From Corynebacterium choanae (GTDB taxonomy: Bacteria > Actinomycetota > Actinomycetes > Mycobacteriales > Mycobacteriaceae), in contig NZ_CP033896.1 of the NCBI RefSeq assembly GCF_003813965.1, forward strand, positions 2,170,001 through 2,234,000: a stretch of 64,000 bases of DNA. Direction: 5' to 3'. The position numbers and the translations under genes are program-made. This document shows positions 29,230-37,736 of the stretch, piece by piece; positions within the stretch are counted from its first letter, which is position 1, and each line of letters opens with the position of its first letter. The notes below the pieces were generated by a model, which was not told the origin of the DNA, did no database searches, and was given only the letters and a program-made list of their open reading frames with translations.

Positions 29230-30616
29230 GGGTTAAGGGACAAAAAGTGTGTCTGGGGGTGGGGGTGGCTGTGGGGGTTTAGATCGTTCCTTTTCTGATC
29301 CCGACGGAGTGCGTGTACTCGATGTCGATATGATTGTCGTACAGCGCGGGGCGTCCGGTTTGATGGTTTGCTTCGTTGTTGTTGACTGGGGTGAGGGTTT
29401 CTACTTTAGCGAGTGAGTCTTTGCCCCAGTTTTGTTGTTTCGCGATGATGTGGGGATCAAGCGGATCTCGGGTGCGAAAGTGGAGCCACCAGTCGATATT
29501 GGTTCGTTGACGTTCTCCTTTTCTACCGTGGTGTTGTCTGGCGATGAGTTTTAAAGGCCCGTTGATACCGCCTTCGAGGCAGTTGGTTGTGGAGGCGAAC
29601 GCCTCAGGGTTCTTCGCGCTGGGATGGGGGGTGAGGTAAGCGAAGAGTTTGCCGTCTTTTGCCAGGTGGTAGAGCCTGTAGAACGCGCGTCGGGCGCGTT
29701 GATGGGTGAAGACTTTTTTTCTTTTTCCCGGTGAGGGGGTCGGTGATGGTGGTTTTTTCGTTCATCCAGCTGTTGCAGTCTTGTGTGAATTGGTGGAGGT
29801 AGTCGATCCATTGGTCGGCTTGTTCACGGGTTGTGATGCGGGTGAGCTGGAGTGCGAGTTGGTAGATGATGGTGCCTTGGGGTGTGCGGGGTCGGCTGGT
29901 GATATCGCGTCGTGTGTTGCGTTGGACGTGTACGAGACAGCGTTGGATAGGGGTCTGTGGCCAGCATGAGGTCATCGCTGTGTAGGCGCCGTTTCCGCCG
30001 TCAATGACTGCCATAAGTGGCGGGGTGATATCACGGATGAGTTGTGTGTAGTCGTAGGTGGTTTCTTGCTTGCACCAGCGCCAGGCAAGGACGTAGTCAC
30101 GGGTTGCTGCGATGAGGAGACAGCCGCCGTTGAGGTAGGTTCCGTCGAGAAAGATTTGATCGTAGACGGGGTGGTTGTGTGGTTGGGGCACGCTGATCAG
30201 CCACAGTGGCTGGAAGTGGCGGTGAACTGTTTTCGGGGATGTGCCACGAGCAGCGGCGATGTCGGCGATGCTTTTATTGCTCGTCAGGTGGGAGATGAAC
30301 TCATTCATCCAGGTTCGAGCGGTGATATCGGGCCGGGTTTTACTTGTAGAGGCACCGCAGTGGATACAACGCCATCGTGTGGTGCCTTTTGTTGTTGTGC
30401 CGTTTTTCTTTGTGGGGTTACCGCAGATACTGCAGCGGGGACGATTGGTTGACATAACCCTGAAGCCAACAGGATCTATACCATGGGGTGGTGGTGCCGT
30501 CAAGGGTTATGGAGAAAAAAGAGGGGAATAAGCTTTCTAGGCTTATTATTTTGTTGTCATTGCTGTTCAGGTGGTAGAAATCGGCGGTTTGAGACACACT
30601 TTTTGACCCTTAAGCC
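29230..30616 (-). mobile_element. Complete IS1249/IS256-type insertion sequence
   Basis: The element is 1387 bp and bounded by 25-bp terminal inverted repeats, 29230-29254 and 30592-30616, identical at 23 of 25 positions (core CAAAAAGTGTGTCT). The 8-bp word TCGAATGC flanks both ends (29222-29229 and 30617-30624), a target-site duplication of the size made by IS256-family elements. It carries one leftward transposase gene broken by a frameshift. It sits between tRNA-Lys and pncA, in a region otherwise conserved with mycobacteria. Retained duplication and near-identical ends suggest recent insertion. Confidence 0.92.
29279..30455 (-). pseudogene. IS1249-like transposase, frameshifted
   Basis: The gene begins MSTNRPRCSICGNP with a zinc-ribbon (CSICGN...CIHCGA) and helix-turn-helix (SIADIAAARGTSPKTVHRH). 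The catalytic aspartates lie in IFLDGTYL and AVIDGGNGAY. After about 250 residues the frame leaves the family at a run of seven A (plus-strand T7 at 29715-29721). Reading on one base later restores it: VFTHQRARRAFYRL, then the catalytic Glu in NCLEGGINGPLK, ending at a TAA at 29279. The zero frame therefore lacks the Glu. The full product would be about 391 residues, normal for the family. Cause may be mutation, slippage on the A-run, or a sequencing error. Confidence 0.85.
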
Positions 30617-32838: not shown

Positions 32839-33000
32839 GGCTGTCGATTCTAGGCGATGGGACGTTGCTTACCGCTGGAACAGGGTGTGTCACCGGTTCT
32901 TGCCGGCAGGGGTTGCCACCGGTAGGCGGCATTGGCGTCTCACTGCAGGCTCTGTTTTCTCGCGAATCAGCCGTGATAGTGCCGGGTATAGTGGAAAAGT

Positions 33001-34044
33001 ATGATCACACCAATGCTTGCGCCGGTCGGCAATACTCCGCTCGTGCCCTGCGATCGGTTGGCTGAGCGGCTCGGATTATCCCGGCGCATCTACGCCAAAC
33101 TTGAGCAATTTAATCCCGGTGGATCAGCGAAAGATCGCACCGCCCGGGCAATGGTGGAAGCGGCCATCGCCGATGGACGTATTGATGAGACAACCACCCC
33201 ACTGCTGGTGGAGTCGTCATCAGGCAATTTAGGGATTGCTCTTGCCCGCCAGGCACACCAGCGAGGCTGGGATTTTCGCTGTGTGGTTGATCCGCGAGCA
33301 AATGCGGCGTCCTTGGCGACTATGGCTCGCTTCGGGGCAACCATCGATATGGTCAACAGTCCCGATGCAGCAACCGGCGACTGGTTGACTGCCCGCCGGG
33401 CGCGTGTACAAGCCTTACTGCAGGAGTATCCGCAGGCCATCAACTTGGATCAATACTCCAACCAGGCTGCCTTTACAGCCCACGCGGAAGGCACCATGGC
33501 TGAAATCTTGAATGCGCTCGACGCACCCCCGGAGTGGCTCTTTGTGGCAGTAAGTACCACCGGCACCCTTGGCGGTTGTCAACGGAAACTTCGCGAGGTT
33601 GGTGCCGATACCGCCACGATGGCCGTTGATGCATACGGCTCGATTCTTTTTGAGGGACCTCGGGCGACTCGGGTCTTACCTGGTTTTGGTGCCGGTGTCC
33701 TGCCTGCGCTGGCAGCACATGTCCATCCCACCGGGGTAACTCGCATTGGCACCAAACAGGCGGTGATCGGTGCGCATGCACTCACCCGGGTGGAGGGGAT
33801 TTTGCCCGGTGCCTCTGGCGGGGCGGTGATTGCTGCCCTCGCGCACGCCGTGGCAACAGGGGTACTCTCCCCCAGCGGGAAACGACCTGTTGTGGTGGTA
33901 TTGCATGACAGCGGTGCCGGTTATCTCGACTCGATTTATGATCCGGGGTGGCTGCACCGGGAAGTAGGCATCACCCAGGATGCAATCCCCCAATTGGTTG
34001 ACGCGTTGTTGGCAGGCGACCTCGGGGACTATGACCGTACCTGA
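33001..34044 (+). CDS. SbnA-like PLP synthase (cysteine synthase family)
   Basis: The 347-residue product belongs to the O-acetylserine sulfhydrylase fold. PLP lysine lies in NPGGSAKDRTAR, the substrate loop in ESSSGNLGIALA and the phosphate-binding loop in VSTTGTLGG. The pattern is closer to SbnA, which joins O-phosphoserine and glutamate into N-(1-amino-1-carboxy-2-ethyl)-glutamate, a precursor of 2,3-diaminopropionate, than to CysK. TATAGT ends 8 nt before the ATG, so this first gene of the cluster probably yields a leaderless mRNA. Two more biosynthetic genes follow on the same strand. The exact substrate is inferred. Confidence 0.82.
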   Translation: MITPMLAPVGNTPLVPCDRLAERLGLSRRIYAKLEQFNPGGSAKDRTARAMVEAAIADGRIDETTTPLLVESSSGNLGIALARQAHQRGWDFRCVVDPRANAASLATMARFGATIDMVNSPDAATGDWLTARRARVQALLQEYPQAINLDQYSNQAAFTAHAEGTMAEILNALDAPPEWLFVAVSTTGTLGGCQRKLREVGADTATMAVDAYGSILFEGPRATRVLPGFGAGVLPALAAHVHPTGVTRIGTKQAVIGAHALTRVEGILPGASGGAVIAALAHAVATGVLSPSGKRPVVVVLHDSGAGYLDSIYDPGWLHREVGITQDAIPQLVDALLAGDLGDYDRT

Positions 34045-34276
34045 GATTCGGGTGTGGTCTGCATACAACCCGCTTTCCACACCGCCCAGCAGCCGCAACC
34101 CCCTTTTATTCGCAGCCTCGTGTGCTGACCAATGGCGGGAATGCAGCAAACAACCAACCACCAGCAGTGCACGGCTTTCACCACCTGTAATGCTCAAGCC
34201 AACCACTACAAGTGTGCAGAACTGATACTCACCGGACTGTGGCCACTTGAGGCAACATGGCCAACCTCGGTCGTTA

Positions 34277-34316
34277 TTTTCTTATCCCTTCAGGTCTTTT
34301 TTCTTATCCCTTTAGG
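34277..34316 (+). repeat. Two 18-bp direct repeats upstream of the FAD/NAD(P) gene
   Basis: TTTTCTTATCCCTTCAGG (34277-34294) and TTTTCTTATCCCTTTAGG (34299-34316) differ at one base, with a 22-bp period (two helical turns). The second copy overlaps the AGGAGG ribosome site of the next gene. They could be an operator or the result of a local duplication. Confidence 0.7.
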
Positions 34317-34332
34317 AGGGTTCCGATTCGCA

Positions 34333-36021
34333 ATGAGCTCCACACAGCAACCAGCCCCCTATCGGGTGGCGATTATCGGCGGCGGCCCGCGTGGACTGTG
34401 GGCGCTCGAAGAACTCCGCAAACAGTGGCAAGCATCGACGGCGCACCTGCCAGTGGCGGTTACCCTCATTGAGCCGCATGCACCCGGGGCGGGTTGGGTG
34501 TATCGAGCCGGCCAGTCGCCGGTGATGCGACTCAACGCCCCAGCCAGTGTGGTGACCTCTTTAACTGGTGGCGCATTCAGCGACTGGTTGGCAGCCAAAC
34601 CTGCAATCCCCGGCGCGCAAGCAGGTGATCCGGCAAGTCGTGTCTTCGTTCCCCGGGTGGTGGTTGGCGAGTTTTTACACCACTGCTATCAGCAGTTGCT
34701 GGCGGATCTTCCACCGGGGATGACTATTGAGCATCTGCCAGGTTTGGCCACGGATGTGGCGATTTCCGGCGATACTATTGATGTCTCGATCAGCGACCTG
34801 CCCGAAGAATCCGAGAGTGACCACGCTCGATCTTTCGATCTGGGCAACCACCGCACCAAGTCGGATGTGGACGGAAATCCAGCCGGAGCGCCGGTTGTGC
34901 CAGCTACGGTGACTGTCGACGAAGTGCTGTTCGCTACTGGGCATGTGCATGCCTGGGAGGGTGAGCTTTCCCCGGCACTGCACCCGTATTTTGCACCGGG
35001 GGTCGATGTCATCCCGGCTGGCGCATGTGTCCATATGCGGGGTGCGGCGCTCACTGCAATTGATGTGTGTCTGCTCCTTACTGAGGGGCGCGGGGGGCGT
35101 TTTGCTACCAGCACACGTGAGCAGTGGCGCTATGTCCGTTGTGGACAGGAACCGAAACAGATCATTCCGTATTCCCGCAGCGGCCGTTTCATGGAGGTCA
35201 AGCCTGCTCCTGGTTCGCCGCTCTACCAGCTCGATGTGGCAGCAGCAGCAGATTTGAGTGACCTGCTTAAGTCTGCTTCCACAACCGAAGCGATCATCGA
35301 TGTGTTGCAGCAGGCAGCTATTGCCTGGTTACAGGCCGCCGGAGAGACAATTACGTCCACTCATCATGCGCAGGTTCGTGCTGTTCTTTCCGGATCTGAT
35401 GGCAGTGGTGATGCGGTGGGTGATCTGCGGCGCAGTGTGCAGGTTATCCGCGGTACTGCCGCACCTTCGCCGCAGTGGGCGGTGGGGGATGCCTTCAGAC
35501 GTCTGTATCCTGCCCTGGTGACCGCCAGAAGTTACCACTATCTGCCGGGTTTTCACCGGTTGTGCCGCACACTTGAGCGGGTGGCCTTTGGTCCGCCCGA
35601 AACTACCGCGGGAAGACTGTTGGCACTGATCGACGAGGGAATTGTTACAGCTCCGCGAACTTGTGCACTGCCGAATGTGAAAGCAGCATTGCCAGAAACC
35701 GACTGGCAACATCAGTATCATCGCGGCGATGACGAAGTGTGGCTGGTGGATGCAACCATTGCCCCACCGGGGATTCACGACCACAGTCTTGCCGGCCGCC
35801 TGCGCAAACTGGGGTTGCTCACGAGTGATGAAAACGGGCTCCTTGCGATTGGGCGCAACGGATATCTCACCGGGTCTCAACGGCTAGCAATGGTGGGGCG
35901 TGATGTTGAAGGCACCGTGCTGGGGCACGACACACTCTCTAGGGCGATGCACCCAGAGATTCCCCGGTGGGCTGCTACCGTCCACGACCATGTGCTCGCC
36001 GCATCTCAGCACAGCACGTAG
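34333..36021 (+). CDS. FAD/NAD(P)-binding protein of the biosynthetic cluster
   Basis: The 562-residue product begins with a dinucleotide-binding motif (VAIIGGGPRGLWALEEL) and the segment PHAPGAGWVYR, as in the NAD_binding_9-type FAD/NAD(P) proteins. Further conserved stretches are VDEVLFATGHVHAWEG and a C-terminal part with LAIGRNGYLTG. It is probably a flavin-dependent oxidoreductase; the reaction is unknown. It occupies the place where the staphyloferrin B pathway has the SbnB dehydrogenase. The start at 34333 has AGGAGG 13 nt upstream, slightly long. It is 288 nt from the SbnA-like gene. Confidence 0.75.
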   Translation: MSSTQQPAPYRVAIIGGGPRGLWALEELRKQWQASTAHLPVAVTLIEPHAPGAGWVYRAGQSPVMRLNAPASVVTSLTGGAFSDWLAAKPAIPGAQAGDPASRVFVPRVVVGEFLHHCYQQLLADLPPGMTIEHLPGLATDVAISGDTIDVSISDLPEESESDHARSFDLGNHRTKSDVDGNPAGAPVVPATVTVDEVLFATGHVHAWEGELSPALHPYFAPGVDVIPAGACVHMRGAALTAIDVCLLLTEGRGGRFATSTREQWRYVRCGQEPKQIIPYSRSGRFMEVKPAPGSPLYQLDVAAAADLSDLLKSASTTEAIIDVLQQAAIAWLQAAGETITSTHHAQVRAVLSGSDGSGDAVGDLRRSVQVIRGTAAPSPQWAVGDAFRRLYPALVTARSYHYLPGFHRLCRTLERVAFGPPETTAGRLLALIDEGIVTAPRTCALPNVKAALPETDWQHQYHRGDDEVWLVDATIAPPGIHDHSLAGRLRKLGLLTSDENGLLAIGRNGYLTGSQRLAMVGRDVEGTVLGHDTLSRAMHPEIPRWAATVHDHVLAASQHST

Positions 36022-36284
36022 TTCCGCATCTTCCACATCTCACCAATTACCGTGACTTGGCTTTGGGTACGACCTGCCAATAAGCAGCTCACTCTACCAA
36101 TGTGGTTTTTTTACCAGTGAGGTCGCCTGCTAGGGCAATGGTGCTTGGGAACCCTATTTTTTTGCCACACCCAACAGATCAGGTCTGCTGGCCACCAACT
36201 GCCCTATTGTTGGTGTTGTTCTTTCTCTTTTTGCATGTTCTTCGCTTAGGAGTGGTTGCTATTTCTTCCCCCTCACCCCGCACA

Positions 36285-37736
36285 ATGGCTGCAACAATCC
36301 CGCTGCAGGCTCGGCTCGCGCCGTGGATGCAAACGTTGCTCGACGCACCTGAGCGCCTCCGCGAGGCGGTGGCCACCTATGGCAGCCCGATTAATATCGT
36401 CAACCCTGCCGCGTTACCAGCCTGTGCCGCGGAACTTGTTGCAGCTGGACGTCGCCATGACGTGGCAGTGGAGATTTTCTTCGCCCGCAAAGCCAATAAG
36501 GCGTTAAGTTTTGTCGACGCGGCCCGTGACGCGGGTCACGGAATAGATGTTGCCTCGTTGCGGGAACTTGCCCAAGTGCTTGCCCGCGGTGTGGATCCGG
36601 CAAAAATTATTGTCTCAGCCGCGATTAAACCTGCTGCACTGCTGCGTCTCGCGGTGGAACATGGGGTCACAGTATCTATCGACAATCCAACTGAGATGTC
36701 CCGACTGGCGGCAATTGCCACACAGCTTGGTCGACAAACCCCTATTGCTTTTCGCATTGCCACCGATCCGGCATACCATCGCCCCACCCGGTTCGGGGAG
36801 CGCCCGGCAACCTGGTGCCAGCTGCTCGCCGACGGGCTACCATCCGGGCTTACACTGGTCGGGGTGCACCTGCATTTGCACGGCTATAGTGCCGCTGATC
36901 GGGCACAAGCACTAGGCGATGCACTGCAGGTTGTTGATGCCGCTACTGCCGCCGGCCACCAGCTCACATTCGTCGATCTTGGTGGCGGGATCCCCATGAG
37001 TTATTTGTCGTCGGCCACGCAGTGGGAGACGTTTCAACAGGCACGGGCTGAACTTGCAGCACATCCTATCGCGGATCCGACAAAACAGTGGACATGGAAC
37101 AATGATCCACTTTCCAACCACTACCCCTTTTATCAACAGCCAATACGCGGTGAATGGCTCACCACCCTGCTCACCGCAACGATCACTTGCGGTGGGAAAC
37201 CCTCCACCGTGGCTGCGGCACTGCGCACCCGCGGACTCGCCCTACACTTGGAACCTGGTCGCAGTGTGCTCGACGGCGGTGGTATGACTGTCGCCGAAGT
37301 CATCCACATCAAACACCGCACCGATGGGGTGGGGCTGGTGGTCTGCGGGATGAACCGCACCCAATGCCGCACCACCAGCGACGATATTTTGCTCGACCCA
37401 ATCCTTGTGCCCCAACCAGATGCCCCAACCGGTGGCACTGATGCACCGTTTACCGGCTTTCTTGTGGGCGCCTACTGTATCGAAGATGAGGTGCTCGTTC
37501 GCCGCGCAATGCACTTCCCCCACGGTGTTCACCCAGGGGATCTCATCGCCATTCCGAATACCGCAGGCTACTTCATGCATATTTTAGAAAGCGCCTCCCA
37601 CCAGATTCCGCTGGCACACACCCTCACCCTTACCGGGAATGACGAGCTCGTGCTCGATGATATTGATCGGCAGCCCGCCTTCGATCCGCCAACACTGACC
37701 GGCGATTTACCGGGCACTGCTCAACCCCATCACTGA
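36285..37736 (+). CDS. Y4yA-type fold-III PLP enzyme (decarboxylase-like)
   Basis: The 483-residue product belongs to the alanine racemase / diaminopimelate decarboxylase fold. PLP lysine lies in EIFFARKANKALSFVD, the phosphate-binding region around FVDLGGGIP and LHLEPGRSVLDGGG, and the C-terminal barrel has GAYCIEDEVLVRRAM. It resembles the Y4yA family of rhizobia and, more distantly, SbnH, which decarboxylates citryl-diaminopropionate. Start choice is uncertain: the ATG at 36285 has no ribosome site, while TTAGGAG at 36246-36252 overlaps an in-frame GTG at 36252. It follows the FAD/NAD(P) gene by about 260 nt. Confidence 0.78.
   Translation: MAATIPLQARLAPWMQTLLDAPERLREAVATYGSPINIVNPAALPACAAELVAAGRRHDVAVEIFFARKANKALSFVDAARDAGHGIDVASLRELAQVLARGVDPAKIIVSAAIKPAALLRLAVEHGVTVSIDNPTEMSRLAAIATQLGRQTPIAFRIATDPAYHRPTRFGERPATWCQLLADGLPSGLTLVGVHLHLHGYSAADRAQALGDALQVVDAATAAGHQLTFVDLGGGIPMSYLSSATQWETFQQARAELAAHPIADPTKQWTWNNDPLSNHYPFYQQPIRGEWLTTLLTATITCGGKPSTVAAALRTRGLALHLEPGRSVLDGGGMTVAEVIHIKHRTDGVGLVVCGMNRTQCRTTSDDILLDPILVPQPDAPTGGTDAPFTGFLVGAYCIEDEVLVRRAMHFPHGVHPGDLIAIPNTAGYFMHILESASHQIPLAHTLTLTGNDELVLDDIDRQPAFDPPTLTGDLPGTAQPHH

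Follow-up and report, generated by a model that had tools for sequence, protein, structure and literature searches.

Three uninterrupted open reading frames (ORFs), here termed genes A, B and C, lie in that order on the forward strand at positions 33001-37736 of a 64,000-nucleotide stretch of the Corynebacterium choanae genome (the window, corresponding to positions 2170001-2234000 of a single contig of 2.99 Mb). On the basis of the ORFs, profile models and structural relatives, gene A (33001-34044, 347 amino acids) encodes an SbnA-like fold-II pyridoxal phosphate (PLP) dependent beta-replacement enzyme; gene B (34333-36021, 562 amino acids) encodes a class-B flavoprotein whose fold family is that of the N-hydroxylases FzmM and CreE, and gene C (36285-37736, 483 amino acids) a Y4yA-type fold-III PLP-dependent decarboxylase. 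The start of gene B is likely to be the ATG at 34333, rather than position 34132 at the beginning of the longest ORF, because it is preceded by the motif AGGAGG at 34314-34319. The frame of gene C is open from 36102, and its start is placed at the ATG at 36285 because the database protein entry (P0001) is 483 amino acids long. The order and strand of the genes, and the families to which an initial annotation had assigned them, are confirmed; the membership of gene B in the FzmM/CreE fold family had not been foreseen.

Conservation and fusion of the three genes

The distribution of the trio was studied in 91 genomes of the genus, one per species and including that of C. choanae. Relatives of gene C are found at E <= 1e-70 in 41 of these, again counting C. 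choanae, although some are broken (that of G078 is split). The window and the surrounding 17 to 19 kb from 33 of the other 40 genomes provide 34 trio loci. A lack of shared neighbourhood was looked for, but gene order is shared: in 31/34 loci no more than 40 bp separate A from B, which is on the strand of A, and the two most often overlap by 4 bp. The other three loci are the window (288 bp to the likely start of B), G020 (1.6 kb) and G078 (335 bp, with a broken gene). Furthermore, B and C form a single ORF in 25 loci (of which that of G078 is broken) and are separate in nine, the window included. This usual fusion, of which protein P0011 of C. callunae is an example, was not anticipated by the initial annotation, and its frequency is suggestive of a joint action of B and C. 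No relatives of the trio on plasmids were found at the DNA level; protein-level matches reveal all three genes, identically ordered, amid unrelated genes on a plasmid of Sulfitobacter pontiacus and on Tsukamurella pTpau01, where B is annotated only in part. With order, overlaps and fusion shared among the loci, and the trio recurring in distant phyla, A-B-C looks like a functionally linked unit.

No further gene family is common to most of the trio loci, the most frequent occurring no more than a few genes away from the trio in 13/34. The top three in frequency comprise an IclR-type regulator and a pair of aconitase-family (LeuCD-like) genes, while YhgE/Pip-type membrane proteins are found near eight loci and an ABC-ATPase family near six; most other neighbouring genes were left unannotated. 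Second, partial copies of the trio are present downstream of the main copy, beyond two YhgE/Pip-like genes, at L062:16068-18406 and L061:17455-18336.

In the window itself, the annotated neighbours encode AcpS, isochorismatase-type and Ham1-type proteins and a transposase, with no transporter among them, as the initial annotation had stated. The IS1249-type transposase ORF (29604-30503, reverse strand, 299 amino acids) is probably truncated, since its match spans only 249 of 382 model positions. A candidate -10 element, TATAGT, lies at 32987-32992 on the forward strand, 8 bases ahead of the ATG at 33001, and this proximity suggests a leaderless transcript of gene A; a consensus promoter scan matched no site. 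Between A and B is a spacer of 288 bp (34045-34332), where most relatives overlap by about 4 bp, and between B and C one of 263 bp (36022-36284), at the point where the two are usually fused. Both were considered as repeats and as RNA elements. Neither has a second copy in the genome, and Rfam at gathering thresholds yields only four tRNAs in the whole window. Directly ahead of gene B, at 34276-34317, a T-rich stretch (TTTTCTTATCCCTT) is present in two near-copies.

The three enzyme families

Gene A matches PF00291 (PALP, 170.5 bits), and its best NCBIfam model is that of SbnA (TIGR03945, 301.4 bits), with cysKM the next at 165.8 bits. Its best solved relative is Staphylococcus aureus SbnA (5d84, 1.6e-57, compared with 1.3e-34 for the next protein). 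Three residues of SbnA, Arg132, Tyr152 and Ser185, have been named as responsible for selective O-phosphoserine binding (PMC12414870). All three are present in 36/36 trio A rows, that of the window included, in agreement with the initial description of an SbnA-type first enzyme. At the same positions the CysK-like paralogue of C. choanae has Ala, Phe and Gly. Nine A-type rows from loci with the gene set of EDHA siderophore clusters (here 'EDHA-type' or 'EDHA-like', a label given by gene content) have Arg in 9/9, His in eight and Tyr in one, and Gly in 9/9. Hence Tyr152 and Ser185 of the trio contrast with the mostly His and Gly of the EDDS/EDHA clusters. A grouping of the first enzyme with CysK or cystathionine synthases was looked for; instead the 36 trio rows form one group (94/97, not starred), with the own CysK-like paralogue outside. 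Beside this group (97/94) stands the EDHA-type row of Mycobacterium avium (L081), whose branch is long (2.59); the other eight EDHA-type rows and a Bradyrhizobium row are separate from it, as are five own paralogues, some of them on very long branches.

Gene C matches PF02784 (97.7 bits) and PF01168 (33.7 bits), and reaches 104.2 bits against the LysA model TIGR01048, below the cut-off of 297.9. The 35 trio rows in its tree likewise form one group (100/99) apart from the LysA-like rows, with which a grouping had been looked for; CysK-like and LysA-like paralogues are present elsewhere in the C. choanae genome (L001, L166). The nearest described relatives of C are the Y4yA enzymes of EDHA-type siderophore clusters, consistent with its designation as Y4yA-type, yet the two are homologues in separate groups of the tree. 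C is no nearer to SbnH of staphyloferrin B synthesis than to diaminopimelate decarboxylase structures. A literature search pairing Y4yA with PLP-dependent found no paper.

Gene B matches PF13454 (NAD_binding_9, 95.5 bits), as initially proposed, and is related in structure, along its whole length, to the aspartate N-hydroxylase FzmM (FzmM/CreE structures 8cp2 and 8cp5), with which it shares the three-domain fold of FAD, NADP and helical domains. It keeps the FAD motif and Arg13, Asn62, Arg258 and Arg412 of FzmM; the flavin-facing Asn62, the catalytic Asn of FzmM, is kept in 18/18 rows of the B family. By contrast, four of the aspartate contacts of FzmM and the sulphate-site Arg409 are missing, and B is fused to, or stands beside, a decarboxylase. 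These positions were assigned by sequence alignment, those with numbers beyond 260 being hand-anchored on motifs, and they point to B being a relative of FzmM and CreE that is not an aspartate N-hydroxylase. FzmM-like genes are also common in Streptomyces and related genomes (21/24 at E <= 1e-30; L174-L185).

Related clusters and regulation

The nearest described clusters, which the initial annotation did not foresee, are those of the aminopolycarboxylates EDDS and EDHA (defined in Spohn 2016 and 2018, as cited by PMC10702961, PMC8914351, PMC4993170, PMC6103462, PMC9252823 and PMC13379591). EDHA-type loci were gathered by scanning a genome collection with Y4yA of Rhodococcus opacus, and gene content was assessed by tblastn in the best 80 of 328 relatives: a CysK-type gene is present in 80/80, a gene of the OCD family in 79/80, a MATE gene in 79/80 and a TauD-type oxygenase gene in 70/80, while gene B is present in 0/80. 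From this gene content, OCD, decarboxylase and CysK-type enzymes would act in a set sequence in EDDS and EDHA synthesis. Thus the trio shares with these clusters a homologous Y4yA decarboxylase paired with a CysK-like enzyme, but has an FzmM-like flavoprotein and no such transporter where they have OCD, MATE and often the oxygenase. In Streptomyces scabiei 87.22, the EDHA siderophore cluster, like the aes genes one of those compared here, is scab_5231-5311, of 11 kb (PMC8914351). One of the 80 loci, in the same genome and with an 11-kb span and Opp-type transporter genes (L101, 588952-606274), is taken to be this cluster from its size, gene content and position. OCD, decarboxylase, PALP and MATE families are found together in five Corynebacterium genomes (G013, G043, G054, G068 and G069), none of them among the 41 with the trio; in G069, whose locus was annotated, they are followed by siderophore-type ABC import genes. 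Within the loci compared, the MATE cluster (c18) is confined to these five EDHA-like ones and is present in 0/34 trio loci.

Y4yA-type genes are also found in other settings. On the Agrobacterium tumefaciens pTi plasmid (L079:7024-10426), an OCD-Y4yA-CysK set lies beside genes for a phosphoenolpyruvate mutase, an aminotransferase and CDP-alcohol functions, which suggests a phosphonate or opine-like product, and on M. avium pMAH135 (L081:5271-10762) a CysK-OCD-Y4yA-MATE set is positioned near copper-responsive genes. In the Bradyrhizobium locus L080, Y4yA adjoins a CysK-type enzyme as in the trio, but is accompanied by an opine-type dehydrogenase, IucA/IucC, an MFS transporter and a TonB receptor, none of which stands beside the trio of the window.

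The initial annotation had observed that neither SbnB nor an IucA/IucC synthetase is adjacent to the trio. This extends to the whole C. choanae genome, which has no match to PF02423 (the SbnB/OCD family) or PF04183 (IucA/IucC) at the sensitivity used, and none to PF00668, the condensation domain of non-ribosomal peptide synthetases (NRPS). Hence, at least in this genome, the product would be made by the three enzymes and general metabolism. Of 24 trio genomes, within 55 genomes of the genus, 20 contain a PF02423 match and four do not (G000, G020, G021 and G035). IucA/IucC is present in 4/41 trio genomes and 6/50 others, and is therefore not linked to the trio. A check of co-occurring genes thus upholds the trio as a conserved unit, but neither an association with IucA/IucC nor a common transporter family.

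Upstream regions were scanned with patterns that we take to be the consensuses of DtxR, Zur (two forms), McbR and CysR-like regulators. A first scan covered 250 bp upstream and 30 bp of 43 A-type genes (those of the 34 trio loci along with EDHA-like, other and second or partial copies), with five base shuffles of each for comparison. The best DtxR matches have 7-12 mismatches at these genes and 3-10 in the shuffles. One Zur form, at up to 6/17 mismatches, is in excess (10/43 against 12/215 shuffles), and the 34 trio starts were therefore rescanned with 278 genuine upstream regions, taken from other genes of these loci, as controls. In this comparison the Zur excess disappears (7/34 against 51/278 at the same threshold), and DtxR matches with up to six mismatches occur at 0/34 trio starts and in 10/278 controls; in either scan, boxes diverging from the assumed consensus could escape. 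Across whole loci, the DtxR consensus with up to 5/19 mismatches is matched in 2/34 trio loci and at none of the trio starts: that in L055 is away from the trio, and that in L048 precedes the gene next upstream of A, on the strand of A and about 1.6 kb from its start. By comparison, DtxR-like boxes are found at or near the operon start in 4/5 Corynebacterium EDHA-like loci (L069, L071, L073 and L074, with 4-5/19 mismatches; not L072), as well as in L083, L101 and L084; L081 has none, and L082 has one away from the operon. The DtxR scans speak against iron control of the trio, within the limit set by divergent boxes. McbR-like matches with up to two mismatches are slightly commoner at trio starts than in controls (5/34 against 12/278), but three of the five, in the closely related genomes of L041, L048 and L076, are near-copies. 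These three palindromes upstream of A, with one or two mismatches, are a possible hint of sulfur regulation.

A proposed route and its alternatives

The gene content, conservation, fusion, families, residues and lack of matches described above are computed, and from them we infer reactions, the order in which C and B act, the nucleophile, the product and its role. Tentatively, and with somewhat less than even confidence, it is proposed that A turns O-phosphoserine into an N-(2-amino-2-carboxyethyl)-amino acid, that C decarboxylates it and that B N-oxidises the result. A would convert O-phospho-L-serine to a PLP-bound aminoacrylate and add the amine of an acidic amino acid, most likely L-glutamate, giving a compound that would resemble the N-(1-amino-1-carboxy-2-ethyl)-glutamic acid (ACEGA) of staphyloferrin B synthesis. 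C would then decarboxylate the diaminopropionate end to leave an N-(2-aminoethyl), or ethylenediamine-type, amino acid, and B, with FAD and NADPH, would hydroxylate an amine of this intermediate or oxidise it further. The three enzymes alone are predicted to yield a small diamine amino acid in N-oxygenated form, as the genome is without a match to the assembly domains searched of NRPS and of NRPS-independent siderophore (NIS) synthesis.

Several observations weigh against this route. The score of gene A falls below the curated cut-off of TIGR03945 (349.95 bits), and A is therefore classed as SbnA-like rather than as SbnA. The five residues described as aspartate contacts in FzmM are Arg13, Arg276, Asn413, Arg416 and Arg577, and only Arg13 is kept (18/18 rows); Arg276 and Arg577 each survive in 1/18 and Asn413 and Arg416 in 0/18, the B of the window having Leu, Arg, Pro and Val at the last four positions. 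The substrate of B is consequently not readable from its residues. The GRGG stretch of the NADP domain (FzmM 230-234) is missing in 7/18 B-family rows, although the B of the window has it, and no exporter or transporter family common to the 34 trio loci was found. Finally, B is found unbroken in G002 and G038, where the flanking ORFs indicate a comparable position; the stretches fetched contain no A, and neither genome has a full C (G002 retains a short C remnant), so that B may act without A and C, or may be a relic. These two genes (L171:13604-15019, reverse strand, and L173:7772-9187, forward strand) share 69% identity with the B part of G016. B-like genes are also present in G037, again with neither A nor C in the part of the genome that was fetched.

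Of the alternatives, the one that survives best, unlikely as it is, has B replacing SbnB: it would oxidise the secondary amine of the product of A, releasing 2-oxoglutarate and diaminopropionate (or its N-hydroxy form), and C would then form ethylenediamine or a derivative. The SbnA residue signature of A is consistent with this, as are the missing PF02423 match in 4/24 trio genomes, that of C. choanae among them, and the OCD gene in third place in the EDHA-type loci. Conversely, the structural relatives of B include many NADPH-dependent monooxygenases (PMC10404684) and no NAD+-dependent OCD-type dehydrogenase is among the structure matches listed; moreover, the remaining 20/24 genomes do contain some OCD-family protein.

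It is rather improbable that the trio makes a new metallophore of the EDDS/EDHA class, with B standing in for the OCD dehydrogenase. The homology of C and A to their counterparts in EDHA-type clusters, a Y4yA and a CysK-type enzyme, argues for it, as do published cluster reports. An aminopolycarboxylic-acid metallophore class is part of antiSMASH 7 (PMC10320115), and antiSMASH-based reports describe EDDS-like clusters in C. striatum (PMC10486106) and aminopolycarboxylic-acid clusters in skin corynebacteria (PMC12542688). Because a C protein of the trio type (P0022) is present in C. striatum, such reports may rest on the trio. Separate from these, EDHA clusters have been reported for C. pseudotuberculosis and C. 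ulcerans (PMC10702961). Set against this are the missing MATE family and the lack of any transporter family shared by the trio loci, promoters without a DtxR or Zur-like excess over the controls, the separation of trio and EDHA-type C in the tree and the failure to detect B in the EDHA-type loci (the best 80 of 328 Y4yA relatives).

There is very little probability that the trio supplies diaminopropionate or ethylenediamine to an NIS synthetase in the manner of staphyloferrin B. The pairing of an SbnA-like enzyme with a fold-III decarboxylase recalls SbnA, SbnB and SbnH of S. aureus, and the Bradyrhizobium Y4yA-CysK pair does lie beside IucA/IucC and a TonB receptor, but the C. choanae genome offers a flavoprotein and no SbnB-family match, supply is contradicted there by the lack of an IucA/IucC match, short of a distant synthetase that escaped recognition, and across the genus there is no association. 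More generally, the siderophore interpretation of the initial annotation, while possible, is weakened, because neither IucA/IucC nor NRPS condensation matches are found and the promoters show no DtxR or Zur-like excess. Chance adjacency of unlinked paralogues from cysteine and lysine metabolism, to whose fold families (those of CysK and LysA) A and C belong, is refuted at the level of linkage by the shared order, overlaps, fusion and recurrence in distant phyla, and by trees that separate them from the own CysK-like paralogue and the LysA-like rows, leaving it almost no probability.

Returning to the route through A, C and B, a broader claim, put forward with distinct doubt, is that the natural fusion of an FzmM-family N-oxygenase and a PLP decarboxylase, fed by the SbnA-like enzyme, yields an undescribed N-oxygenated ethylenediamine-type amino acid (a hydroxylamine, oxime, nitro compound or nitrone) in nearly half of the Corynebacterium species sampled, without NRPS or NIS assembly, and that this serves a signal, redox or metal-handling role rather than that of a classical iron siderophore. 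In the literature searched, no description of the A-B-C combination and no product of the trio was found. The trio is a real and widespread biosynthetic unit, undescribed as far as that literature extends, and would constitute a variant, itself not found described, of the SbnA/aminopolycarboxylate route, with a relative of flavin N-oxygenases in the place of the dehydrogenase. It is carried by many species of Corynebacterium, to which both skin commensals and industrial strains belong; the named records include C. striatum and C. callunae. If the proposed route is correct, SbnA-type C-N bond formation and FzmM-type N-oxygenation would be joined in one short pathway, and a different chemistry may underlie the EDDS-like clusters called in corynebacteria.

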